Source: Gammaproteobacteria bacterium (GTDB lineage Bacteria > Pseudomonadota > Gammaproteobacteria > Pseudomonadales > Halieaceae). From it: 10,853 nucleotides of DNA. Shown in pieces: positions 2-10,853 of this stretch; position 1 is the stretch's first letter, and each line of letters starts with the position of its first letter. The stretch covers positions 1 through 10,853 of the forward strand of contig JAOUDU010000042.1 of assembly GCA_029859085.1 (NCBI GenBank), given 5' to 3'. Both the position numbers and the translations under genes were made by a program. The notes below the pieces were generated by a model. It was not told where the DNA came from, did no database searches, and saw nothing but the letters and a program-made list of their open reading frames with translations.

Positions 2-355
2 GTACTGGCGTCGCCGGCACTGCCGCAACGGGCTCTGGGCGAGCTGTTGCTGGTAGCCGAAGAAGTGGTATCCAACGTGCAAAAGTACGCCGGGCTTGCC
101 CCCGATGCGGCCATTGCGGTTTCTGCATATGCCGATGCCGTCCAGGTGGGGATCGAGGTGCGCGATGGCGGGACCGCTTTCAACCCGCTGACACAGGCGC
201 AAAAGTCGGAACTGGGTGTCGCTACCGAAGACGCCGCGGTCGGCGGACTGGGCGTGCACCTGATCACCGCCCTGACCGACCGGCAAAGCTATCGTCGCGA
301 GGATGGCTGCAATATACTGCGGGTCAGCAAATTGCTCGAAAACCCGCCGGATTAG
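2..355 (+). CDS. Anti-sigma factor-type serine kinase / ATP-binding protein (HATPase_c_2), 5' end missing
   Basis: The frame is open to the left edge, so the start lies upstream; 117 residues are visible. The sequence shows the signatures of the GHKL/HATPase_c_2 family of RsbW/SpoIIAB-like proteins: an N-box-like helix (ELLLVAEEVVSNVQKYA) with the conserved Glu and Asn, an Asp-Gly nucleotide-binding motif (VRDGGTAFNPL), and a glycine-rich lid (GGLGVHLI). Family members bind a sigma factor or other target and phosphorylate a STAS partner on serine. The next gene, 41 bp downstream on the same strand, encodes such a STAS protein, so the pair very likely forms a partner-switching module. Family proteins are usually about 130-150 residues, so only a short N-terminal part is missing. 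The target, whether a sigma factor or another effector, cannot be read from this window. Confidence 0.85.
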   Translation, partial: VLASPALPQRALGELLLVAEEVVSNVQKYAGLAPDAAIAVSAYADAVQVGIEVRDGGTAFNPLTQAQKSELGVATEDAAVGGLGVHLITALTDRQSYRREDGCNILRVSKLLENPPD

Positions 356-396
356 GGAACTGGATATTCCGGCTGTACTCAACAAGGGCGCAAGAT

Positions 397-771
397 ATGG
401 AATTGACCACCACCGTCACTGTCGATGAGAAGCACTCGGTTGCCCGGGTAGCGCTGGCGGGCGCGCTGAACACGGACACCGCGCCGGAGTTCGAGCGACG
501 CCTGCTGGCAGTGCTGGACGGCAACCACGAGCTGACCGTGCTCGACATGAAAGACCTGGACTACATCAGCTCCGCCGGCCTGAGGGTCATCTTCAAGGGC
601 GCCAAGCGGGCCAGGGCTGGGGGAAGACGCATGGCCGCCGCCAATCGCAAGCCGCATATCGACAAGGTGTTCGAAATCCTCAAGGCGCTGCCGGATATGG
701 CGGTTTTCGCCAACGAGCAGGAGCTGGACGATTACCTGGATGTGATGCAGGCGCGCACCCGCGGGAAATAG
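397..771 (+). CDS. STAS-domain anti-anti-sigma factor (RsbV/SpoIIAA-like)
   Basis: A 124-residue single-domain protein. The STAS hallmark lies at residues 47-65: a hydrophobic strand (TVLDMKDLDYI) leading into SSAGLRVI. By alignment with SpoIIAA, Ser59 (possibly the adjacent Ser58) is the likely phosphorylation site for the upstream ATPase. In this family the unphosphorylated protein binds the anti-sigma kinase and frees its target; phosphorylation reverses this. The ATG is supported by an AAGGG Shine-Dalgarno sequence at 384-388, 8 nt upstream. It follows the ATPase gene by 41 bp and is probably cotranscribed with it. The C-terminal tail (about residues 105-124) is charged and extends slightly past the core fold. 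It converges with the amidotransferase gene, leaving only 18 bp between stop codons. Confidence 0.9.
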   Translation: MELTTTVTVDEKHSVARVALAGALNTDTAPEFERRLLAVLDGNHELTVLDMKDLDYISSAGLRVIFKGAKRARAGGRRMAAANRKPHIDKVFEILKALPDMAVFANEQELDDYLDVMQARTRGK

Positions 772-789
772 CCCGCAGATACCGGCCCG

Positions 790-1515
790 CTAGGCGGATT
801 TCTGCGCGGCGCCCGGTTCCCGCAGGAAGTTCAGGATCCAGCGCGCCACCCGCTCCTGCTGGGGTGCGACCGCCAGGGAGTCCATGCCCGCCCTGTAAAC
901 CGGTTCCCCGATAAGCTTGCGCCTGAACTCCATGATCTCCCGGGAATACTCCGGCACAAATTCCGGGTGCCCCTGGAACGTCAGGATGTGGTCGCCGACC
1001 TGGCAGACCGCGTTTTCACAAAATTCACTGCTCGCCAGCACCCGCGCATTCGCGGCGTTGCGCACCACCTGGTCCTGGTGACTCACCAGGATATCGAAAT
1101 CGGCTGCTTCATTGTCGTGCCAGGCCGGCACCTCGCTGAAACGATGGGTGTGCAGGCCGACGCCCCAGCCTTTTGTCGATTTTTCCGTCTTTCCGCCCAG
1201 GGCATGTGCGACCAGCTGGTGCCCGAAACAGATGCCCACCAGCTTCTTGCGGCGCCGGTCCAGTTCCCGCACGAAATCCATCAGTGTGGCGATCCATGGC
1301 TTGTCATCGTAGACGCTGGATTTGCTGCCGGTGATCAGGTAGGCATCCACCTCGTCGATATCCGCGGGGTATTCTCCCTCCTCGACATCGTAAACCCGGA
1401 ATTCCATGGTGGGGTCGACCTTGCCCAGCAGCCGGATAAACATGTCGGGATACTCGCCAAACTCACCCACCCACTCGGGTCGCACCGCGTCGGTTTTCAA
1501 GATGCCCAGTTTCAT
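790..1515 (-). CDS. Class I glutamine amidotransferase-like protein (GMP synthase GATase-type domain)
   Basis: A 241-residue cytosolic protein with the class I (triad) glutamine amidotransferase fold. The nucleophile elbow is GICFGHQL with Cys96, and the catalytic His-Glu pair sits in GHPEF (His183, Glu185). The oxyanion-side motif YLITGSKSSVYD is at about residues 59-70. Such domains hydrolyse glutamine and pass ammonia to a synthetase, but stand-alone members of this family have varied or unknown substrates, and no synthase partner is adjacent. I place the start at the ATG of MKLGILKTD, where the fold begins; a GGGAG sequence at 1529-1533 lies 13 nt upstream, which is rather far. The frame stays open upstream to a possible TTG at 1665, but those 50 extra residues have no family counterpart and run to the edge of a palindrome. 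Confidence 0.87.
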   Translation of the reverse strand: MKLGILKTDAVRPEWVGEFGEYPDMFIRLLGKVDPTMEFRVYDVEEGEYPADIDEVDAYLITGSKSSVYDDKPWIATLMDFVRELDRRRKKLVGICFGHQLVAHALGGKTEKSTKGWGVGLHTHRFSEVPAWHDNEAADFDILVSHQDQVVRNAANARVLASSEFCENAVCQVGDHILTFQGHPEFVPEYSREIMEFRRKLIGEPVYRAGMDSLAVAPQQERVARWILNFLREPGAAQKSA

Positions 1516-1753
1516 CGCCGCCCCGCGTCTCCCGCCAAAATTGGCTACAGCCCAGACCATCACTGCCCGGAAAAAGTCATGATAGGCAGCGCGGTTGCGC
1601 CTGTCCATAACACTAAAGGGCTGCTTTCCCGCTGCCTTCGCCCGGTGCCAACTGGCGCCCTGCAACCGGCGGGCATGCCCGCCGGCCTTGGGCCAGGTCC
1701 ACGAATGCGGTAATGTGTGACCTCTTTTTTGCGTGCAGGATTAACCGCTTCCA
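1516..1753. promoter_or_regulatory. Divergent intergenic region with 20-bp perfect palindrome
   Basis: This 238-bp gap separates the minus-strand amidotransferase from the plus-strand octaheme gene, so it should hold promoters for both. At 1666-1685 there is a perfect 20-bp palindrome (CCGGCGGG-CATG-CCCGCCGG). Just after it, TTGGGC (1688-1693) and TAATGT (1711-1716) have a 17-bp spacing. They fit a sigma70 promoter only weakly, at three of six positions each. An AGGA at 1737-1740 is the best ribosome site for the octaheme gene, with a long 13-nt spacing. The palindrome lacks a following T tract, so it looks more like a protein-binding site than a terminator. Confidence 0.4.
1666..1685. repeat. 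Perfect 20-bp inverted repeat
   Basis: The two 10-base halves are exact reverse complements, centred on CATG at 1674-1677. As RNA it would make an 8-bp GC stem with a 4-base loop on either strand. There is no adjoining T run. It sits immediately upstream of the possible -35 element of the octaheme cytochrome gene, a position compatible with an activator site. The bound factor is unknown. Confidence 0.6.
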
Positions 1754-3991
1754 ATGTTCCCCCGATTATTGATATCAGCGCTGCTGCTGCTCAGCGGCGC
1801 CAGCCATGGATTCACCGGCAGCGAGGCATGCAAGAGCTGCCACGCCGATGAGTTCGCCAACTGGCAGGGCTCCCACCACGACCTCGCCATGCAAATGCCC
1901 TCAGCGCAAACCGTGCTGGGAAATTTCAATGACGCGACCTTCACCTACAACGGCATCACCACCCGCTTCTTCCGCGAGGGCGATGACTACAAGGTGCGCA
2001 CTGATGGCGAGGACGGCAAGCTCACCGATTTCACTGTGAAATATGTTTTCGGCGTCTATCCGCTGCAACAGTACCTGCTGCCCCTCTCGCGCGGCCGGCT
2101 GCAGGCGCTGAGTATCGCCTGGGACGCCCGGCCCGCGACCGAGGGCGGGCAGCGCTGGTACCACCTCTACCCCGATGAGAAGGTCGACTACAAGGATCCG
2201 CTGCACTGGACCGGTCCCTACCAGAACTGGAACAGCCGCTGCGCCGAGTGCCACAGCACCGACCTGGTGAAGAACTACAGCGCCGCCGATCACACCTTCG
2301 CCACTACCTTTGCCGAGATCGACGTGGGCTGCGAGGCCTGCCACGGCCCCGGCGAAAAGCACCTGGAACTGACTGCTGCCGGCAAACTGCAGGGCGCCGC
2401 CAACAGTGGCTTTGCCACAGACCTGGCCCAGCGCGGGCACTGGGAACTGGCCCAGGGCGCGCATATCGCGCACCGCACCGAACCCCTCAACTCGCTGGCC
2501 CAGGTAGACAGCTGCGGCCGCTGCCACTCCCGCCGTGGCACCCTCGGTGAATACCATTACGGGGCCGACCTGCTGGCCACCCACCGGGTGGCACTGCCCC
2601 AGCCGCCGCTGTACTACTACGATGGCCAGGTCCTGGACGAGGACTATGTCTACGGTTCCTTCCTGCAGAGCAAGATGCACCTGGCCGGCGTGGTGTGCAG
2701 CAACTGCCATGAACCCCACAGCCTGGCGCTGCGCTCCCCCGGCAACGGGGTATGCGCCCAGTGCCATCAGCCGCAGCACTACGATACCCCCGAGCACCAC
2801 CACCATGCCGCCGGATCCGGCGGCGCCCTGTGCGCCAATTGCCACATGCCCGAGACGACCTACATGGGCGTGGACGCGCGCCGCGACCACAGCATGCGCG
2901 TCCCGCGCCCGGACCTGAGCGTGGTGATGGGGACGCCCAACGCCTGCAACAGCTGTCACCAGGACAAGGACGCCCAGTGGGCACTCGACAGCCTGCGGGG
3001 CTGGGGGGTCCAGTTCCGTGACACCGGCAACCACTTCGCCCGGGCGTTCCAGCGCTTCGACCTGGGGGACCGCAGTGTGGTACCGACCCTCGCCGCGCTT
3101 GCCAATGACCCCTCGGCCGCGCCCATATGGCGCGCTACCGCAATCGAGGCGGTGGCGCAGGCGGGCGGCCGGGAGGCGATCCAGACGGTGACGTCCGTGC
3201 TGTACGACGATGATCCGCTGTTGCGGGCCAGCGCCGTGCGCTCCCTCAGTTTCCTGCCCCTGAACCAGCGCTACCAGCTGTTGCAACCGCTGCTGGATGA
3301 CGGGGTCGCCACGGTGCGATTGGAGGTTGCCCAGTCACTGGCCGGAGTGCCCCTGGACCAGGTAAGCCCGGAACAGGCACAGCAGCTACAGGACCTGTTC
3401 AACTGGTACCTGGGTATCATGGCCATGAACGCCGAGATGCCCGAGACCCAGTTGCAGCTGGGCGTATTTTATCTGGAGCGGGGCGACCTCGCCGCGGCGG
3501 AGGCTGCCTACCGCGAGGCGCTGCGGCTCAATCCGCAGCTGGTGCCGGCCTATCTCAACCTCGCCGACCTGATGCGCAGCCAGAACCGCGATGCTCAGGC
3601 CCGGGAGCTGATGCTGCAGGTACTGCAATTCGCGCCGGACAACGGGCCCACTTTGCACTCCCTGGGACTGCTGGAAACCCGCAGCGGCACCCCCGACAAG
3701 GCGCTGGAATACCTGCGCAGGGCCGCGGAACTGGAGACCGATGGCAGCCGCCACCGCTTCATCTACGCCATCGCCCTGCACGACCTGGGCCAGCCGCAGG
3801 AGGCGGTCAAGCAGTTGCAGGCCCTGCTGCGCCAGCTGCCCCGCAGCGAGGACGTGCTGCTGGCGCTGGCGAATTACAATGCTGAACTGGGCCGGCTCGA
3901 CCAGGCCCGCAGCTACGCCCGGACGCTGACGGAAATTGCGCCCGGCAACAAGGCTTATGGGCAGCTGCTGGAGCAGTTATCGAAACCCTAG
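1754..3991 (+). CDS. Secreted octaheme c-type cytochrome with HEAT-like and TPR repeats (cytochrome c554-like)
   Basis: A 745-residue exported protein. Residues 1-20 form a short Sec signal peptide with likely cleavage near Ser-His-Gly. Eight CXXCH heme motifs follow, at Cys26, 163, 193, 254, 315, 334, 360 and 398. The first (SEACKSCH, followed by GSHHDLAM) and the block around GCEACHGPGEKH resemble the cytochrome c554 family. Residues 440-535 look like HEAT-like helical repeats (e.g. DDPLLRASAVRSL). Residues 562-740 hold about five TPRs, the clearest being GDLAAAEAAYREALRLNP. It therefore joins a periplasmic electron-transfer head to a protein-binding helical tail. Multiheme-TPR proteins of this kind are known in several phyla but mostly lack an assigned substrate; a periplasmic redox or assembly role is inference. 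The stop codon overlaps that of the convergent Sel1/ankyrin gene at CTAG. Confidence 0.9.
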   Translation: MFPRLLISALLLLSGASHGFTGSEACKSCHADEFANWQGSHHDLAMQMPSAQTVLGNFNDATFTYNGITTRFFREGDDYKVRTDGEDGKLTDFTVKYVFGVYPLQQYLLPLSRGRLQALSIAWDARPATEGGQRWYHLYPDEKVDYKDPLHWTGPYQNWNSRCAECHSTDLVKNYSAADHTFATTFAEIDVGCEACHGPGEKHLELTAAGKLQGAANSGFATDLAQRGHWELAQGAHIAHRTEPLNSLAQVDSCGRCHSRRGTLGEYHYGADLLATHRVALPQPPLYYYDGQVLDEDYVYGSFLQSKMHLAGVVCSNCHEPHSLALRSPGNGVCAQCHQPQHYDTPEHHHHAAGSGGALCANCHMPETTYMGVDARRDHSMRVPRPDLSVVMGTPNACNSCHQDKDAQWALDSLRGWGVQFRDTGNHFARAFQRFDLGDRSVVPTLAALANDPSAAPIWRATAIEAVAQAGGREAIQTVTSVLYDDDPLLRASAVRSLSFLPLNQRYQLLQPLLDDGVATVRLEVAQSLAGVPLDQVSPEQAQQLQDLFNWYLGIMAMNAEMPETQLQLGVFYLERGDLAAAEAAYREALRLNPQLVPAYLNLADLMRSQNRDAQARELMLQVLQFAPDNGPTLHSLGLLETRSGTPDKALEYLRRAAELETDGSRHRFIYAIALHDLGQPQEAVKQLQALLRQLPRSEDVLLALANYNAELGRLDQARSYARTLTEIAPGNKAYGQLLEQLSKP

Positions 3992-5955
3992 AAGCCGGGA
4001 AAGCGCAAACCCGACTTTTCCTTGATCAGCCCGACCAGCCCGGGCTGGTGCTGTTCGGCCAGGGCCAACGCGGACTCGCCCAGCTCATTGCGACGGTAGG
4101 GATCACTGCCATGGTCGAGTAATTGGGCGACCAACAGCGGCGAACCGATGCTGACGGCATATATCAGCGCGGTATCGCCGTTATTGTTCTGCGGGTTGGC
4201 CTCGGCACCGTGCTCGATCAGCCGCAGGGCGATGTCGGTCTCGCCAGCGCGCACAGCCAGTATCAGCGGCGTATTTTTTTGTAATGTCCGGGCCTCGACG
4301 TCGGCACCAGCGGCGAGCAGGCTCGCCACGGCTGCCAAGCAACCCTTGCTCGCAGCCACGTGCAAGGCCGTGGAGCCGTCCCCATCCGCAGAATTCGGCT
4401 GCGCTCCTGCACCCAACAGCTGGTCGATGAGTTCGCCCCGGCAATAGCGGGCCGCATACCACAGTGCATCGCGCCCCTTCTGGTCCGCTAAATCAATCCG
4501 CGCCTTGCGCGCCAGCAATTCCCGGGCTGTCCGGGTTGCTCCAAACTCCAGCGCCATCATCAGGTAGGTTTTACCGGACGCGGTCTGGTTGCCAAGGTCC
4601 GTCGCGCCTCCGATCAATTGCAGCGCTGTGTCCTCGTGACCCCCAAGCAGAGCGAGATGGATGGCATCGCGGCCACGGGTATCGCGCGGCGCCATGGTCG
4701 CGCCCAGGGCCAGCAACCGGGCCACCGCCTCGCCGTTACCCCGGGCAGCCGCGACCATCAGCGCAGTTTTGCCCTCACTGTTTTGCTGATCAGGTTGCGC
4801 GCCGGCCGCCACCAGCAAGGGCATTACCGCGGTACTGGAGGCCTCGCCCGCGTAGAGAAGCAGGGTCCGGTCACGTCCGTCCAGCACCTGCGCAAGACCG
4901 GGGGTCTGTTGCGCCAGCAGAGCCTCGAGCGCCGCGGGCTGGTCCTGTAGCACCGCCTGCCGCGCCAGCGACCAGCCCGCTTCCGGGTCCGTCGAGTCCT
5001 GTTCAGCCAGGTAACCCGCAATGGAACCGCCCACATTGCCGGTCTCCTGCTGCCAGCGGGGGCCATGCTGCGCACCGGCCCGGGTAAGCAATTGCTGCGC
5101 CGCCTCATCCTGCAGCAGAAAGGCCATATCCAGCGGGGTATGTCCGGCCCTGTTTTCCATACTGTTTGGGCCGTGCCCGGCCAGCAGCGCCTTGAGTATG
5201 TCCGTCTCGTGGCCGGCAATCGCCAGGTGCAGGACGGTGTCACCCGAAGCGGTGGTGGCCGCCACGTTGGCCCCCCCCGCCAACAACAGCCTGACCGCCG
5301 CGGAGTTTTCCCGCTTCACCGCCAGCACCAGGGGGCTCTCGCCAAAGCGGTCGACATTATTGACATCGATACCGTGATCCATCAGCAGCCGCATACCAGG
5401 CAGGCTATCGCAGGCCACCAGGTAATACAGCGCGTTGCGATGATACTCATCCAGGGCGGAAACCGGTGCGCCGGCCTGCAACAGGCGTGTCAGAGCCTGC
5501 ATATCGCAGCCGAGGGCCGCCTGCTGCCACTGTTCCACTGAACTGCCCTGAAGGGCAGCGGCCGGCAGCTTTCCCAATTCCGCCCGGGCCCGCTCATGTC
5601 CCTGGTTTGCAGCCTGCTGCAGCCACTCCCGACCCTGTTCCTGCTCTGAGCCCCTGAGCAGCAGCAAGCCCAGGGTATATTGCGCGTTTGCCTCGCCACT
5701 CCTGGCGGCCTGGTCCAGCCACTTGCGGGCGAGTGTCTCATCCTTGTCCACACCACGCCCCACCATATACAGCTTGCCGAGCTGGTATTGGGCTTCAACT
5801 GAGCCCGCATCCGCCGCGCTCTCAAACACCCCGGCGGCGGCGGTAAAGTCGCCCCGGCGCATGGCAGTGTAGGCATCGGCCAGATCCGAGGCCTGTAACG
5901 GCAAAGCCGACCAGCACAATAGCAACAACAGGGTTCTTGAGAACCAGGCCGTCAT
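3988..5955 (-). CDS. Exported Sel1-like and ankyrin repeat protein
   Basis: A 655-residue protein with an N-terminal signal peptide (hydrophobic residues 7-20, likely SPase I site after LPLQAS). The cysteine at residue 14 does not sit in a good lipobox, so I do not call a lipoprotein. Residues 25-130 hold about three Sel1-like repeats (AQYQLGKLYMVGRGVDKDE, then AQYTLGLLLLRG). From about residue 140 to 645 there are roughly a dozen ankyrin repeats in two blocks (about 140-295 and 355-645), with typical turns such as GSTALHVAASKGCLAAVASL and NGDTALIYAV. A less regular stretch at about 295-355 separates the blocks. Both repeat types bind proteins, so a periplasmic scaffold is the natural inference; no enzyme domain is visible. 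The start codon overlaps the flavoprotein stop (ATGA), which implies cotranscription and coupled translation. Confidence 0.88.
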   Translation of the reverse strand: MTAWFSRTLLLLLCWSALPLQASDLADAYTAMRRGDFTAAAGVFESAADAGSVEAQYQLGKLYMVGRGVDKDETLARKWLDQAARSGEANAQYTLGLLLLRGSEQEQGREWLQQAANQGHERARAELGKLPAAALQGSSVEQWQQAALGCDMQALTRLLQAGAPVSALDEYHRNALYYLVACDSLPGMRLLMDHGIDVNNVDRFGESPLVLAVKRENSAAVRLLLAGGANVAATTASGDTVLHLAIAGHETDILKALLAGHGPNSMENRAGHTPLDMAFLLQDEAAQQLLTRAGAQHGPRWQQETGNVGGSIAGYLAEQDSTDPEAGWSLARQAVLQDQPAALEALLAQQTPGLAQVLDGRDRTLLLYAGEASSTAVMPLLVAAGAQPDQQNSEGKTALMVAAARGNGEAVARLLALGATMAPRDTRGRDAIHLALLGGHEDTALQLIGGATDLGNQTASGKTYLMMALEFGATRTARELLARKARIDLADQKGRDALWYAARYCRGELIDQLLGAGAQPNSADGDGSTALHVAASKGCLAAVASLLAAGADVEARTLQKNTPLILAVRAGETDIALRLIEHGAEANPQNNNGDTALIYAVSIGSPLLVAQLLDHGSDPYRRNELGESALALAEQHQPGLVGLIKEKSGLRFPGF

Positions 5956-7256
5956 GCGGTGCCGTACCGTGTTTCCACCGCGATTCCCACGGACTCCAGG
6001 AAGGCGGAAGGAAGGATGCCACCGGCGCAGACGATGACCGCATCGTTGGCGAGGTGCGTCTCACCGCCGGCAAGCTCCAGGTGTACCGTGTCCTCGCTTA
6101 TCCGCTTCACCTGCGAGCCCATCTCCACCCGCAGCCGGCCCGCCTCCCGGGCCCGGTCGATACGCTCCCGGTTCTTTGCCTTCACGCGGCTGAAAGCCGT
6201 GCCGCGATAGGACAGGGTCACCTCGGTTCCGGCCTCCTCTGACAGGCTTGCCGCGGCCTCGAGAGCGCTGTCGCCGCCACCCACCACCAGCACTTTCCGG
6301 CCACGGTACTGCTCGGGATCCAGCAACCGGTAAACCACTTTGCTGTGTTCCTCCCCGGGGACACCGAGTTTGCGGGGAGTGCCCCGGCGGCCGATGGCCA
6401 GCAACACGTTGCTGGCCTGGTAGGCTTTGTCAGCGCGTACCTGGAACCCGTCATTGACGATGTCGATACCCTCCACCCTGGCACCCGTATGAATATCCAG
6501 TCCCGCCTGCTCAACCACCCCGGACCAGAAATCCATCAGGTTCTCCTTACTGGTCTCGGCAAACCGGAACTCACCCACGATCGGCAGTTTCGCAGGAGCA
6601 GTCATCACCACCTTGCCCCGCGGGTAGTGGGCGATTGTGCCCCCCACCGTGTCCTGCTCCAGAACCCGGTAGCGCAGGTTTGACTCCTTGGCCGCCATCG
6701 CGGCGCTGATCCCGGCGGGGCCGGCCCCGATGATCAGTACATCCAGCTGCCCGGCAGGTCTTTTACGGCCATTGCGGCCGATGGCCTCGATGGCCTGGCG
6801 ACCCTGTTCTATCGCGTTGCGGATCAGGCCCATGCCGCCCAGCTCCCCCGCGATATAGATTCCGGGAATATTGGTCTGGAAATCCGCCCCGACCTGGGGA
6901 ATGTCCACCCCGCGGGTAGCGGTACCGAAAACCAGGGTAATTGCCTGGGTCGGGCAGGCGGTCTTGCAGGCACCGTGGCCTATGCAGGAGGAGGGTTTGA
7001 TCAGGTAGGCGCGATTATTCATCAGGCCCAGCACGCTCTTTTCCGGGCAGGCCTTTACGCAGGTGCCACAGCCCAGGCAGCGGGCGTAGTCGATGACCGG
7101 GTGCAGCGAGGCCGGCTCCAGCAGGCCCGACTCCACCGATTCCTGGTAGACAAGCTCCGCTTTGCGGGTACCGCGCCGTTGTACCAGCCAGTAAACCAGC
7201 ATAAATGCCAGCGCCGGTACCCCGTAAACGACCCCTATGGTGAGTAACCCCGACAA
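5952..7256 (-). CDS. Membrane-anchored 2x[4Fe-4S]-like ferredoxin / FAD-NAD(P) oxidoreductase with permuted FAD motifs
   Basis: A 434-residue protein if started at the TTG at 7254-7256. In order: a transmembrane helix (residues 4-25); a ferredoxin-like domain with CLGCGTCVKACP (Cys60, 63, 66, 70) and CIGHGACKTACP (Cys91, His94, Cys97, Cys101); a segment at 128-161 containing TNIPGIYIAGELGGMGLIRN; an FAD Rossmann motif GAGPAGIS (177-184); and an NAD(P)-binding motif GGGDSALEAA (326-335). In thioredoxin-reductase-like proteins the PGIY-AG motif is C-terminal; here it precedes the first Rossmann motif, and the protein ends soon after CAGG (410-413). No redox-active CXXC follows the FAD motif, so it is probably not a thioredoxin reductase. 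It likely moves electrons between NAD(P)H and membrane hemes. The frame extends to 7391, but the extra 45 residues are Tyr/Asn/Ser/Lys-rich and lie in the AT-rich promoter region, so I exclude them; Met at 7202 is another possible start. Confidence 0.83.
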   Translation of the reverse strand: MSGLLTIGVVYGVPALAFMLVYWLVQRRGTRKAELVYQESVESGLLEPASLHPVIDYARCLGCGTCVKACPEKSVLGLMNNRAYLIKPSSCIGHGACKTACPTQAITLVFGTATRGVDIPQVGADFQTNIPGIYIAGELGGMGLIRNAIEQGRQAIEAIGRNGRKRPAGQLDVLIIGAGPAGISAAMAAKESNLRYRVLEQDTVGGTIAHYPRGKVVMTAPAKLPIVGEFRFAETSKENLMDFWSGVVEQAGLDIHTGARVEGIDIVNDGFQVRADKAYQASNVLLAIGRRGTPRKLGVPGEEHSKVVYRLLDPEQYRGRKVLVVGGGDSALEAAASLSEEAGTEVTLSYRGTAFSRVKAKNRERIDRAREAGRLRVEMGSQVKRISEDTVHLELAGGETHLANDAVIVCAGGILPSAFLESVGIAVETRYGTA

Positions 7257-7389
7257 GGAAGCACCCCGATTGAAATTGCTGAAATGTATATATTTGGGAT
7301 TATATTCCCATATTTTTGAAGTATAGTGTGAACTAAGTCCGTTTTTCGATGTGCCGTACGACCAGACTATAAAAGGGCAACCAGCACAC
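7257..7389. promoter_or_regulatory. AT-rich divergent promoter region between the flavoprotein and cytochrome b operons
   Basis: These 133 bp are strikingly AT-rich, most of all at 7270-7327, against GC-rich neighbours, and separate two divergent operons. On the minus strand a perfect TATAAT lies at 7304-7299, about 43 nt upstream of the flavoprotein TTG; I see no good -35 for it. On the plus strand TATAGT (7322-7327) is a possible -10 for the cytochrome b operon. An inverted repeat TGGGA-N6-TCCCA at 7295-7310 covers the minus-strand -10. TGAAAT occurs twice, at 7271-7276 and 7280-7285. AAAAGGG at 7371-7377 is the probable ribosome site for the ATG at 7390. Confidence 0.55.
7295..7310. promoter_or_regulatory. 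Operator-like inverted repeat TGGGA-N6-TCCCA
   Basis: Five-base arms are separated by six AT bases. Outside the arms, an AT at 7292-7293 mirrors an AT at 7312-7313 across one mismatch. The spacer contains the minus-strand TATAAT, so a protein bound here could block the flavoprotein promoter and influence the divergent one. The regulator is not identified. Confidence 0.4.
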
Positions 7390-8253
7390 ATGGGAGCAAT
7401 ATCAGGAGATTTCTCCAGAAAAACCCCTATCGCGCGCTACCTGTCGAGCTCGCCACGCACCGCGTTCAGGGCGTTCGCGGTGCTGGTGGCGGCCGTCATG
7501 GGCTGGGCCTGGTGGGTTCGCGATTATCGCTACCTGCAGGCCGAATCCGGCGCCGGCTATGCGCTGGGCATCGCCGGCGCCAGCATGATGGTTATTTTGC
7601 TGCTGTACCCGCTGCGCAAGCGGGTGCGGTTCATGCAGGGATGGCTGCAGCTCAGGAGCTGGTTCAGCCTGCATATGCTACTCGGCGTCCTCGGCCCTCT
7701 CTGTATCCTGCTGCACTGCAATTTTCGCCTGGGTTCCACCAACAGCAATGTCGCCCTGACCAGCATGCTGCTGGTGGCTGGCAGCGGGCTGGTAGGCCGC
7801 TATCTCTACGGCAAGTTCCACTTCGGTTTATACGGGCAACAGGTTGGCCTCCAACAGCTGAAAACCGATCTCGACTATATCTACCAGCAGTTCGAAGCAT
7901 CTGGACTCGAGGACCCGGGGCGAGCGGGTCTGAAGGCGCTTTATGAGACCTGCAGCGAAATCATCGAGAGCCAACGCAAAAAAGTGTCTGTCCGGCAGTT
8001 GATCGGGCAGCGCCGCCGGCTGCGGCAGATGACGCGGCAAGCGCTCTCAACGATCGTCGCTGATGACACAACCGCAGCCGCGCGGAAGCAACTTGAGGAC
8101 CTTCGCCACGCCCTGGTCGCGCTGCTGGACAAGCTGGCGGGGCTGCGCCTGTTCGAACGCCTGTTCGGACTGTGGCACATCGTGCATATCCCGGTGTTCC
8201 TGCTGATGATCGTCACCGCTATCGTCCACATATTTGTGGTCCACTGGTACTGA
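7390..8253 (+). CDS. Five-helix di-heme cytochrome b (ferric reductase-like membrane domain without flavin domain)
   Basis: A 287-residue integral membrane protein. Hydrophobic helices lie at about residues 25-43, 57-73, 93-111, 119-140 and 261-285. Helix 3 carries His95 and His109, and helix 5 carries His266 and His280; both pairs are 14 residues apart, as expected for two stacked b hemes bridging the membrane. His263 and His285 are additional. A helical, charged segment of about 110 residues (150-258) lies between helices 4 and 5, where ferric reductase/NOX-type proteins usually have short loops. There is no C-terminal FAD/NAD(P)H domain; the divergent flavoprotein could supply it in trans. 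The ATG at 7390 has AAAAGGG 12 nt upstream; a GTG at 7351 would add 13 residues but has no ribosome site. The 21-heme gene starts 4 bp after the stop. Confidence 0.82.
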   Translation: MGAISGDFSRKTPIARYLSSSPRTAFRAFAVLVAAVMGWAWWVRDYRYLQAESGAGYALGIAGASMMVILLLYPLRKRVRFMQGWLQLRSWFSLHMLLGVLGPLCILLHCNFRLGSTNSNVALTSMLLVAGSGLVGRYLYGKFHFGLYGQQVGLQQLKTDLDYIYQQFEASGLEDPGRAGLKALYETCSEIIESQRKKVSVRQLIGQRRRLRQMTRQALSTIVADDTTAAARKQLEDLRHALVALLDKLAGLRLFERLFGLWHIVHIPVFLLMIVTAIVHIFVVHWY

Positions 8254-8257
8254 CCGG

Positions 8258-9826
8258 ATGCGAATCCCCCCGGTCATTTTCCCCGTGCTGGCCATTGTGG
8301 CCAGCCTGCTGGCTGGGGCACCGTCCCTCGCCGGGGACCTCAGCCTCAAGTCAATGATCCTGATGCCAGGCCCACTCGCCAAGGCACACGCGAAGGAGGA
8401 GAAAAACTGCGAGGCCTGCCACAGCAGCTTCGACAAGTCGGCCCAGGACTCCCTCTGCCTGGCTTGCCACGAGGACATAGCCGCCGATCGCAAGGCGCAG
8501 CAGGGTTTTCACAGCCGCTCGGACCTCGCCAGCTCAGCCAGTTGCAAAAGCTGCCACACAGATCACAAGGGGCGCGATTACAATATCGTGCCGCTGGACC
8601 AGGATATATTCGATCACGCCAGTGCCGACTTCAGCCTGTCCGGGAAGCACGCCAGCACTCCCTGTGAGGGTTGCCACAAGGCCGGCACCCGGTTCCGCGA
8701 AACCCCCGGCGAGTGCCATGCCTGTCACAAGGAGCAGGATCCGCACCGTGGCGGGCTCGGCAGTGAGTGCAGTAACTGCCACGCGCCGGATGACTGGAAC
8801 AAGCCAGCTGCGTTCGACCACGGCAAGACCGATTTCGCTCTGAAGGGCGGGCACGAGAAGCTGGTTTGTGCCAGCTGCCACGCGGGAGAGAAATACTCTT
8901 TTGAATCGACCGAATGCGTCAGCTGCCACCAGCTGCGTGACGTACACCTGGGTCGTTACGGCAAGGACTGCGCGCAATGCCATTCCGAGGATGACTGGAC
9001 CAGGCAGGCCTTCGATCACTCCACGACAGACTTTCCGCTGACCGGTTCACACCGGGACACCGCCTGCAAATCATGCCATTTCGGCGACCTCAGGGAGCGC
9101 ACCCCATCCAAGGCCTGTGCATCATGCCACGCCGGTAGCGACGTCCACGCGGGCAGGCACGGGCAGGCATGTGAGACGTGTCATAACACCAGCGACTGGA
9201 AAAAAGCGCCCTTCGACCACGGCAAAAAGGCCAATTGGCCCCTGACCGGCAAACACCGCGACCTTTCCTGCCTGCAGTGCCATCGGGGATCACTGGAAGA
9301 CAAGTTGAGCGGCGAATGCGATTCCTGCCACCGCGCCGCGGATGTGCACAGGTCGGGGGATATGAGGGACTGCGGTCTATGCCACCGCACCTCCGGCTGG
9401 GCAGACACATCCGGCTTCGACCACGAGTTAACACGCTTCCCCCTGGAGGGAATGCACGCCACGGCGGCTTGTGAGTCGTGTCACGACAGCGACCAGTTTC
9501 ATCTGGCCAAAAGCGCCTGCATGGATTGCCACGGGGGGGATGACACCCACGAATCGGGGCTGGGTGCGCAGTGTGAGAGCTGCCACACACCCAATGGCTG
9601 GGCACTGTGGAATTTCAACCACGACACCGCCACGGATTTCAGCCTGGACGGGGCACATGCCGATCTCACCTGCGCCAGCTGCCACCACGGCAACGGGGCC
9701 GACGATGTGGCGGGCGACTGTGCCGGCTGCCATGGCGGTGACGATCGTCATGACGGCGGTTTTGGTCGCGCCTGCGGGCGCTGTCACACGACGAAATCTT
9801 TCGGGGAAATCCAATGGCACAAATAG
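8258..9826 (+). CDS. 21-heme periplasmic c-type cytochrome with six triheme repeats
   Basis: A 522-residue protein with a signal peptide (residues 1-26, likely cleavage after SLAG). I count 21 CXXCH motifs, at Cys51, 67, 96, 136, 153, 171, 204, 220, 238, 270, 287, 305, 338, 354, 372, 405, 421, 439, 472, 488 and 506. The first three form an N-terminal domain. The other 18 lie in six tandem units of 66-68 residues beginning at residues 118, 186, 252, 319, 387 and 453. Each unit has F-[DN]-H, G-x-H and D-x-H plus three CXXCH, so each heme has a candidate distal histidine. This fits a periplasmic or extracellular electron carrier in the broad cytochrome c3/c7-like group. An upstream in-frame TTG at 8234 would overlap the cytochrome b gene, so I prefer the ATG 4 bp after its stop; no strong ribosome site is visible and translation may be coupled. 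Confidence 0.9.
   Translation: MRIPPVIFPVLAIVASLLAGAPSLAGDLSLKSMILMPGPLAKAHAKEEKNCEACHSSFDKSAQDSLCLACHEDIAADRKAQQGFHSRSDLASSASCKSCHTDHKGRDYNIVPLDQDIFDHASADFSLSGKHASTPCEGCHKAGTRFRETPGECHACHKEQDPHRGGLGSECSNCHAPDDWNKPAAFDHGKTDFALKGGHEKLVCASCHAGEKYSFESTECVSCHQLRDVHLGRYGKDCAQCHSEDDWTRQAFDHSTTDFPLTGSHRDTACKSCHFGDLRERTPSKACASCHAGSDVHAGRHGQACETCHNTSDWKKAPFDHGKKANWPLTGKHRDLSCLQCHRGSLEDKLSGECDSCHRAADVHRSGDMRDCGLCHRTSGWADTSGFDHELTRFPLEGMHATAACESCHDSDQFHLAKSACMDCHGGDDTHESGLGAQCESCHTPNGWALWNFNHDTATDFSLDGAHADLTCASCHHGNGADDVAGDCAGCHGGDDRHDGGFGRACGRCHTTKSFGEIQWHK
8609..9823 (+). repeat. Six tandem triheme protein modules (66-68 residues each)
   Basis: Units begin at 8609, 8813, 9011, 9212, 9416 and 9614. 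The consensus is F-D-H, then T-D-F-x-L-x-G-x-H, CXXCH, CXXCH, D-x-H-x-G-x-x-G, CXXCH, and in most units a Trp five residues after the last heme His. The units have diverged at the DNA level, which suggests an old expansion. The last unit ends at the protein terminus and has no Trp at that place. Confidence 0.85.
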
Positions 9827-10853
9827 CTCGTTTAACGCTGGCTCTCTGCCTTGGGTTGCTCCTTTTCTCAACCGGCGTCGCCGGGGCCGAGAGTACCGGG
9901 TTTGACCATTTTTCCACCGGGTTCGAATTGCGCGGTGCCCACAAGGACCTGCAGTGCGACAGCTGTCACAAGCGGGGGGTGTTCGCGGGTACACCCAGGG
10001 AATGCCAGCTGTGTCACGTGCCCAACGGCCTGCTCGATACCTCCTTCAAGCCGCAGAATCATATTCCCTCGACGGGTGCCTGTGAGAGTTGCCACGATAC
10101 CTACAACTGGCAGGAAATAGTGCGTGTGGATCACTCTCAGGTGCCCCAGACCTGCATCCTCTGCCACGACGGCAGGACCGCGACCGGCAAACCGGTCAAT
10201 CATGTAGTCTCCGGCCAGCAGTGCGAAACCTGCCACTCGTCCATGGCCTGGTCTCCCGCCCTGTTTGACCACAGCAATGTGACGCAGCCCTGCTCTACAT
10301 GTCACAACGGCGCTATTTCGACGGGCAAGCCCGCCAGACATATTGTCACCAGCTCAGACTGCGAAAGCTGTCACTCAACTTTCGCCTGGCTACCGGCTAC
10401 GTTTGATCACGTCGGCATCACCGGTAACTGCCAGAGTTGCCACAACGGGGTGCAGGCCCAGGGAAAATCCCCCAAACACCTGCCTACCACCCAGGATTGC
10501 GTCACCTGCCATGCCACCGCCGCGTGGCGTCCCGCGAATTTTGACCACGTCGGTATCACCGGTGACTGCCAGAGCTGCCACAACGGCTCCATCGCCCAGG
10601 GCAAGGGCGCGAAACATCTTCCGCCCAGCCAGGACTGTGCGGTGTGCCACTCCTCTGTGGCGTGGCTGCCGGCCAATTTCACTCACGCCGGCATCACCGG
10701 CAACTGCCAGAGCTGCCACAACGGCACCACCGCCCAGGGCAAGGGCAACACCCATATCCCCACTACCCAGGACTGCGCCGTGTGCCACTCCCCGGTGGCC
10801 TGGAAGCCGGCCAATTTCAGCCACGCCGGCATCACCGGCAACTGCCAGAGCTG
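9814..10853 (+). CDS. Large multiheme c-type cytochrome, 3' end beyond window (triheme unit plus diheme repeats)
   Basis: The frame is open from the ATG at 9814 to the right edge (346 complete codons). The start overlaps the upstream gene by 13 bp and has GGGGA at 9803-9807, 6 nt upstream. Residues 1-25 are a signal peptide with a likely cut after AGA. There are 13 complete CXXCH motifs (Cys48, 64, 90, 114, 137, 160, 183, 206, 229, 252, 275, 298, 321) and a 14th cut by the edge. Residues 30-99 form one triheme unit like those of the upstream cytochrome. From residue 105, diheme units of exactly 46 residues follow. Each holds F-x-H, CXXCH-N-G, G-K-x-x-x-H, CXXCH and a Trp (A-W), giving two non-motif histidines for two hemes. 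It is probably an exported electron conduit. Full length and any surface anchor are unknown. Confidence 0.9.
   Translation, partial: MAQIARLTLALCLGLLLFSTGVAGAESTGFDHFSTGFELRGAHKDLQCDSCHKRGVFAGTPRECQLCHVPNGLLDTSFKPQNHIPSTGACESCHDTYNWQEIVRVDHSQVPQTCILCHDGRTATGKPVNHVVSGQQCETCHSSMAWSPALFDHSNVTQPCSTCHNGAISTGKPARHIVTSSDCESCHSTFAWLPATFDHVGITGNCQSCHNGVQAQGKSPKHLPTTQDCVTCHATAAWRPANFDHVGITGDCQSCHNGSIAQGKGAKHLPPSQDCAVCHSSVAWLPANFTHAGITGNCQSCHNGTTAQGKGNTHIPTTQDCAVCHSPVAWKPANFSHAGITGNCQS
9901..10110 (+). repeat. Single triheme module at the N-terminus of the diheme-repeat cytochrome
   Basis: This 70-residue segment (residues 30-99) has the same layout as the repeats of the preceding gene: FDH, G-F-E-L-R-G-A-H, then CDSCH, CQLCH and CESCH, ending in Trp. 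The usual D-x-H is replaced by an N-H ahead of the last heme. It is followed directly by the first 46-residue diheme unit. Confidence 0.75.
10126..10853 (+). repeat. Tandem 138-bp repeats encoding 46-residue diheme modules
   Basis: Units start at 10126, 10264, 10402, 10540, 10678 and 10816, exactly 138 bp apart; the sixth is cut by the window edge. Later units are very alike in DNA. Those at 10678 and 10816 agree at nearly every visible base, including the stretch encoding HAGITGNCQS. The first two units are clearly more diverged. The array probably continues beyond the edge. Confidence 0.9.

Follow-up and report, generated by a model that had tools for sequence, protein, structure and literature searches.

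A conserved flavoprotein-ankyrin gene pair beside a PCC3-type porin-cytochrome conduit and its possible role as an electron input module

Introduction

Which protein exchanges electrons with the inner-membrane end of a multiheme wire is the question raised by contig JAOUDU010000042.1 (C330 hereafter) of the assembly GCA_029859085.1 (Gammaproteobacteria bacterium, 3.77 Mb in 771 contigs), where the genes of a porin-cytochrome conduit lie next to those of a flavoprotein (FLAV) and an exported repeat protein (ANK). The window analyzed here is this entire contig of 10 853 nucleotides. A preliminary description of the window sequence had proposed, for positions 5952–10853, an undescribed electron conduit in which the flavin domain of a NOX- or ferric reductase-type cytochrome b is supplied in trans. 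The conduit is of the PCC3 type, known from the literature since 2017, where it figures as a candidate for iron oxidation; on the cell side, the only partner put forward for it is a proposed quinone link. The near-obligate association of PCC3 with a NAD(P)/FAD/Fe-S protein would provide it with a concrete inner terminus, and the electrons would then flow opposite to the direction usually assumed.

A PCC3-type locus with two additional genes

Rightwards from position 3988, the locus consists of ANK and FLAV on the minus strand, a divergent gap of 133 bases, and the genes of an inner membrane protein (IMP) and two multiheme cytochromes (MHC1 and MHC2) on the plus strand:

3988..5955, minus strand: ANK, exported Sel1 and ankyrin-repeat protein, 655 amino acids (Pfam Sel1/Ank, signal-like N-terminus, FLAV-then-ANK order)
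5952..7256, minus strand: FLAV, flavoprotein, 434 amino acids, TTG start (Pfam Pyr_redox_3/2 and Fer4, PDB sequence and fold matches, topology, motifs)
6753..6935, minus strand: FLAV residues 108–168, C-terminal FAD-domain end in its relocated position, TNIPGIYIAGELGG... (Pyr_redox_2 and PDB profile matches)
7257..7389, no strand: divergent intergenic gap that separates the FLAV-ANK operon from the IMP-MHC operon (gene boundaries)
7390..8253, plus strand: IMP, putative two-heme cytochrome b, 287 amino acids, two WX3HX13H motifs and SGXXG (motifs, alignment, published PCC3 IMP signature)
8258..9826, plus strand: MHC1, exported, 21 CXXCH motifs, expected periplasmic PCC3 subunit (CXXCH count, Pfam Cytochrome_C7/c3)
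9814..10853, plus strand: MHC2, exported repeat cytochrome, expected extracellular PCC3 subunit (open at the contig end)

An IMP-alignment scan of named genomes confirmed 414 relatives, and the locus counts given below rest on the best 80 of these 414, with gene maps drawn by a longest-open-reading-frame heuristic and with profiles built from the same loci. According to the main-text passages of He et al. (2017, PMC5566968), PCC3 consists of a porin, an extracellular multiheme cytochrome (median 34 hemes), a periplasmic one (median 21 hemes) and an inner membrane protein of about 300 amino acids that has five helices, the fourth bearing SGXXG and the third and fifth WX3HX13H. The window IMP is of this size, with five helices and HX13H pairs on the third and fifth transmembrane helices (TM3 and TM5), and SGXXG along with both WX3HX13H motifs is present in it and in all 80 relatives. 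A 21-heme cytochrome, expected to be periplasmic, a second multiheme cytochrome, expected to be extracellular, and a candidate porin gene (on contig C477 of the same genome) are found as well. With the porin on C477, the gene order is the same as that reported for the ES-1 PCC3, namely, IMP, periplasmic cytochrome, extracellular cytochrome and porin (Slit_1446 to Slit_1449; main-text passages of PMC12016527).

By these sequence features, the locus is a PCC3-type porin-cytochrome conduit, already described, and the claim of an undescribed one falls, together with the novelty of the NOX-like cytochrome b, because He et al. already liken IMP to the two-heme ferric reductase/NOX domain (PMC5566968, main-text passages). 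The gene content that had been read from positions 5952–10853, that is, a NAD(P)/FAD/Fe-S protein, a two-motif IMP, and a 21-heme and a second exported cytochrome, is borne out in gene boundaries, motifs and heme counts, except that the ‘at least 14' hemes of the second cytochrome amount to 13 complete CXXCH motifs, with the 14th begun and cut by the contig end.

FLAV and ANK are conserved companions of IMP

The linkage of the genes that flank the gap at 7257–7389, on which the proposal of a split reductase depended, is conserved across genomes. Near IMP, the profiles detect FLAV in 68 of the 80 loci, ANK in 60 and the porin gene in 46; BLAST with the window proteins gives 68 for FLAV and 58–61 for ANK. 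At E<=1e-5, BLAST homologues of FLAV, ANK, IMP, MHC1 and MHC2 are present in 68, 61, 80, 78 and 75 loci, respectively, and those of the remaining four window genes in none. When only the 29 loci that extend 9 kb or more to each side are counted, 27 contain FLAV, 25 ANK and 28 the porin. FLAV precedes ANK on one strand in all 59 loci that have both (gap of -139 to 98), and in the window, the two genes overlap by 4 bases. The placement of FLAV (with or without ANK) varies: it is divergent upstream of IMP in 49 loci and the window, codirectional upstream in 11 and convergent beyond the porin in 8, with three changes among these placements on a quick IMP tree, where the well-supported branches alone force at most one change per placement. 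In the 12 loci that lack FLAV, the gene lies elsewhere in the assembly for 7 genomes and is not found in 5 (E<=1e-60).

The association also holds at the level of genomes. In a sample of 274 genomes of the class, at cut-offs set after the tables had been viewed (E<=1e-40 for IMP and E<=1e-100 for FLAV), 34 genomes encode IMP and 35 encode FLAV; both are present in 33, IMP only in 1 (G191), FLAV only in 2 (G098 and G178) and neither in 238. FLAV is thus found in 33 of the 34 genomes with IMP versus 2 of the 240 without it (Fisher p 5e-39, a significance that is overstated because relatedness was ignored). Not counted under these cut-offs are weak matches to the IMP profile in G043, G091, G155 and G174 (E 1e-10 to 1e-17), additional IMP-profile matches, weak or incomplete, in G240 and G264, and the match of G139 to the FLAV profile (1.5e-71). 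FLAV lies on the same contig, within 20 kb, at 31 of the 37 IMP places in this sample. Among 349 genomes of the phylum, the strong matches to IMP and to FLAV coincide in 4 genomes, of which G000 and G086 also belong to the class sample; the weaker FLAV-profile matches in G139 and G274 (E ~1e-71 and ~1e-61; frames of 780 and 854 amino acids) were set aside. Plasmid records contain no IMP homologue. In G178, which has FLAV and no IMP, the frame next to FLAV is of the Sel1/ankyrin type, judged by eye.

The opposite strands of the two operons are what could be expected if the flavoprotein and the cytochromes were neighbors by accident. To this explanation we give next to no weight: it is contradicted by the linkage and co-occurrence counts, which rule out chance adjacency, and by the absence of the other window neighbors from all 80 loci.

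The FLAV-ANK pair also accompanies IMP in the locus L079 of Bradyrhizobium sp. STM 3843, whose genome is listed as a PCC3 genome by He et al. (PMC5566968, main-text passages). Where the PCC3 papers give components in their main-text passages, these are a porin, two multiheme cytochromes and an inner membrane protein, and no flavoprotein, FAD enzyme or ferredoxin is tied to PCC3 in these passages; flanking genes may be drawn in the figures or supplements of PMC5566968. The terms ankyrin and thioredoxin reductase (thioredoxin in PMC5566968) have zero occurrences in the PCC3 main texts of PMC5566968, PMC10734462, PMC8788666, PMC12442390, PMC12016527 and PMC13386937, a search that did not extend to figures and supplements, and among the papers searched, none joins ankyrin with multiheme cytochromes, porins and extracellular electron transfer. 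What appears to be new is the FLAV-ANK pair as a conserved partner of PCC3, which makes it a marker for such systems in fragmented metagenomes.

FLAV is a permuted, membrane-anchored flavoprotein

FLAV combines an N-terminal transmembrane helix, a ferredoxin-like two-cluster stretch and a FAD/NAD(P) reductase domain of the thioredoxin-reductase/YpdA fold, and is unusual both in its fold order and in one of its cluster motifs: the ferredoxin-like part contains CxxCxxCxxxCP and CxxHxxCxxxCP, the second with a conserved histidine. These motifs and matches point to a protein that would carry FAD and Fe-S clusters. On sequence comparison, the reductase domain is circularly permuted, with the C-terminal FAD segment preceding the first Rossmann motif. 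Residues 108–168 show a weak match to positions 258–291 of the 291 in Pyr_redox_2 (E 0.026, under the curated cut-off), and the rest of FLAV matches positions 2–253; used as a profile, the same segment has its top PDB matches in late segments of GltD, thioredoxin reductase (TrxR) and glutathione reductase, with unrelated chains lower among the 40 matches listed. The permuted order is recovered by pattern in 119 of 120 database matches and in 64 of 67 locus sequences, the misses including variants of the pattern and one frame that a contig end truncates. A search of the circular-permutation literature yielded no paper on the FLAV family among the matches listed, by title or abstract start.

No CxxC follows the Rossmann motif in 186 of the 187 sequences in which this motif was found, and the assignment of FLAV as a disulfide reductase or thioredoxin reductase was rejected for lack of this redox-active site; its score with the YpdA profile TIGR04018, 160.9 bits, does not reach the curated cut-off of 339.9. 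The positive charges following the helix place the Fe-S/flavin domain in the cytoplasm in 39 of 39 aligned sequences, so that FLAV is predicted to have its N-terminus outside and its catalytic part in the cytoplasm. This is, by our reading, the same side as that of an IMP loop of about 100 residues, which is predicted from charges and helices; the preliminary description would have been contradicted by a placement on opposite sides.

Two cousins of FLAV were noticed, partly by eye. One, in L153 (184–2517, minus strand), is a protein of 777 amino acids in which a polyferredoxin membrane part is fused to the flavin domain, here also permuted; the other, in L154 (1462–3789, plus strand), has the normal domain order, followed by two apparent cyclic-nucleotide-binding domains and 4Fe-4S motifs.

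Several PCC3 loci, including L017, L019, L026, L027, L028, L047, L050, L071 and L072, are adjoined by Ccm-type genes, namely, CcmF, a CcmG-like redoxin and a CcmH-type TPR protein (one member annotated per cluster). With such neighbors and an exported ANK, FLAV and ANK could serve in cytochrome maturation or redox upkeep rather than in conduction. This function seems quite improbable given that FLAV is predicted to be cytoplasmic and lacks CxxC, and that the Ccm-type clusters are found in 18, 8 and 7 of the 80 loci, compared with 68 for FLAV.

IMP resembles NOX at the level of motifs

IMP ends at 8253 and contains no fused FAD/NAD(P)H domain. From its two HX13H pairs, it is a putative cytochrome b that would bind two b hemes, and this much of the proposed likeness to NOX and ferric reductases stands, as a kinship at the motif level only. 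The window IMP matches no Pfam or NCBIfam family at E<=0.001, and its relative P0001, which differs from it at the single residue 165 and on which the fold model was made, matches two Pfam families at E<=1, neither of them the ferric reductase family PF01794. For 37 IMP members, PF01794 is absent among 25 of 28 families listed, and there are weak, non-significant leanings to DUF4405 (5 of 37, best E 0.05) and to cytochrome b561 (2 of 37, best E 0.031); heme b binding has been reported for the DUF4405 class (PMC11334425). The P0001 model has a pLDDT of 82.6, and its best Foldseek E-value against PDB is 0.41, that is, no convincing match, which does not imply a new fold.

The Pfam leanings, with ferric reductase absent from the families listed, are more in line with the published model of PCC3, in which IMP trades electrons with the quinone pool; FLAV would then be an auxiliary that feeds or drains IMP or the pool and not the main entry. 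With bc1 and the hydrogenase cytochrome b as analogues, He et al. propose that IMP is a cytochrome b active with quinones (PMC5566968, main-text passages), and the few IMP genomes that lack FLAV are also in accord with their model. A quinone enzyme sufficient in itself would not account for the near-obligate co-occurrence of FLAV, and no sign of a quinone site was found, with no search aimed at one; we consider this alternative to be possible, if rather doubtful.

A possible route from NAD(P)H to an extracellular acceptor

In the reading preferred here, the chances of which we judge to be even, PCC3 is a conduit with a conserved two-gene input module, where a NOX/MsrQ-like NAD(P)H dehydrogenase assembled in trans feeds the wire outward. 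NAD(P)H would reduce the FAD of FLAV in the cytoplasm, and the electrons would pass to the two Fe-S clusters of FLAV, exit via the histidine-containing cluster to the inner b heme of the five-helix IMP, cross the inner membrane via both b hemes and then reach, in succession, the 21-heme periplasmic wire (MHC1), the porin-held repeat cytochrome (MHC2) and an extracellular acceptor. The FLAV helix might stand in for the helix that links the membrane and dehydrogenase parts in NOX, and ANK might act as a periplasmic scaffold or assembly factor, a role guessed from its export and repeats. For a flavoenzyme acting in trans on a membrane cytochrome of the ferric reductase type, MsrQ with Fre offers a precedent (PMC11031084 and PMC5676040, in the parts cited). 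If the preferred reading is correct, many PCC3 bacteria could dump reducing power outside, instead of or besides taking it up.

The opposite direction, with an extracellular donor, such as Fe(II), reducing the wire and IMP, and FLAV making NAD(P)H or feeding a low-potential carrier, appears unlikely. Outward flow from NAD(P)H is favored by the redox potential and the membrane field. Inward flow, from the positive outside to NAD(P)+, would have to climb in redox potential and also to overcome the membrane potential, and the cluster shows no coupling subunit. PCC3 does occur in known iron oxidizers (main-text passages of PMC5566968 and PMC10734462), and its expression, as given in passages of the respective papers, is mixed: one PCC3 IMP gene is up in iron-oxidizing CL21 cells (PMC12442390), in favor of uptake, and the PCC3 genes of ES-1 are down on Fe(II) (PMC8788666), which speaks against it.

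Several observations weigh against the preferred outward route from FLAV through IMP. The mixed expression is one, and the quinone-linked IMP in the model of He et al. (PMC5566968) is another. The five genomes in which FLAV was not found include that of L074, where ANK and IMP are present and the record is a chromosome; because of these genomes, FLAV cannot be strictly required. IMP has neither a Pfam ferric-reductase match nor a convincing fold match. Because none of the reading frames of the 80 loci has a match to IMP as well as to FLAV (no dedicated fusion search was made), gene fusion lends no support to their contact. The idea of a flavin domain supplied in trans gains from the conserved linkage, the predicted cytoplasmic topology and the MsrQ-Fre precedent, and is a hypothesis supported by genomics; the literature seen gave no biochemical data on any PCC3 or FLAV.

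More tentatively, PCC3 as a whole might be a six-part NAD(P)H:extracellular acceptor oxidoreductase rather than primarily a quinone-linked iron-oxidation wire. Its split NOX-like dehydrogenase, composed of a permuted FLAV with a His-ligated exit cluster acting in trans with IMP, would discharge cytoplasmic NAD(P)H via the periplasm-spanning 21-heme wire and be assembled on an exported ankyrin scaffold.

Multiheme cytochromes, porin and neighboring genes

MHC1 and MHC2 overlap by 13 bases and, like ANK, start with a signal-like hydrophobic stretch. Among the relatives, 40 of 65 complete first cytochromes contain 21 CXXCH. The second cytochrome has from 5 to 61 CXXCH among 32 complete copies (L009–L088), the first mostly 21.

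Contig C477 starts in frame with the MHC2 heme repeat, shares an 18-base exact overlap with the window end and contains six CXXCH. The gene after the heme repeat (C477, 558–2294), which has no NCBIfam match, reaches 560 bits against a profile made from the relatives' candidate porins; of the complete candidates, 41 of 43 end in an aromatic residue. MHC2 therefore probably continues on C477 (locus L161), with the porin next, in agreement with the expectation of a porin gene beyond the right edge of the window, the two contigs not being physically joined. Because the overlap is short and repetitive, the join, across some number of missing repeats, can only be putative. It is favored because Cytochrome_C7 matches (E<=0.001) occur in this genome only on C330, C477 and C382, and C382 carries a separate MtrA/MtrB-type pair. 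After the porin, L161 (G000:C477, 2331–8922, plus strand) encodes large TPR-like proteins, of which one is probably a lipoprotein, as judged by eye, together with a TolQ/ExbB-like protein.

As had been stated in the preliminary description, the window has no MtrCAB arrangement, beta-barrel gene or decaheme protein: the cut MHC2 scores 52 bits with TIGR03508 (cut-off 192), and an MtrCAB kinship of the cluster was rejected on profile scores far under the cut-off. The pair on C382 (L162, G000:C382, 4–3155, minus strand), a decaheme cytochrome of the DmsE family (10 CXXCH) and, after it, a porin of the MtrB/PioB family, each of which exceeds its NCBIfam cut-off, would be a second conduit of this genome, if it is not contamination (estimated at 4.89%).

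To the left of ANK, the gene at 1754–3991 (plus strand) encodes an octaheme protein that is exported and contains HEAT and TPR repeats; the gene overlaps the end of the convergent ANK by 4 bases. With homologues in none of the 80 PCC3 loci, it is apparently outside the system; an octaheme protein in locus L024 is unrelated. The left end (2–771, plus strand, and 790–1521, minus strand) encodes a HATPase_c_2 and STAS-domain pair (anti-sigma type regulators) and a class-I glutamine amidotransferase, also with homologues in none of the 80 loci.

Comparison with known systems

A functional parallel would be MsrPQ with Fre of E. coli, where a heme b protein of the membrane that itself lacks a dehydrogenase domain is reduced in trans by a cytoplasmic NAD(P)H flavoenzyme. 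The differences are that Fre is a flavin reductase of the FNR family, whereas FLAV is anchored in the membrane, has Fe-S motifs and the TrxR fold, and that the acceptor here would be a multiheme wire. NOX and ferric reductases, such as SpNOX, share with the present system two HX13H motifs on TM3 and TM5 and a dehydrogenase part on the cytoplasmic side, which is predicted for FLAV. NOX has six helices, whereas IMP has five, lacks a fused FAD/NADPH domain and shows no detected sequence or fold match to these proteins. Compared with YpdA and the TrxR-like ferredoxin-NADP+ reductases, FLAV adds a transmembrane helix and a ferredoxin, lacks CxxC and has the C-terminal FAD segment ahead of the first Rossmann motif. 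MtrCAB and MtoAB similarly combine a porin with multiheme cytochromes of the periplasm and the cell surface, but the present cluster contains neither a decaheme MtrA nor an MtrB-family porin. Finally, PCC3 as published lists a porin, two multiheme cytochromes and a quinone-linked IMP, whereas here FLAV and ANK are linked components as well.

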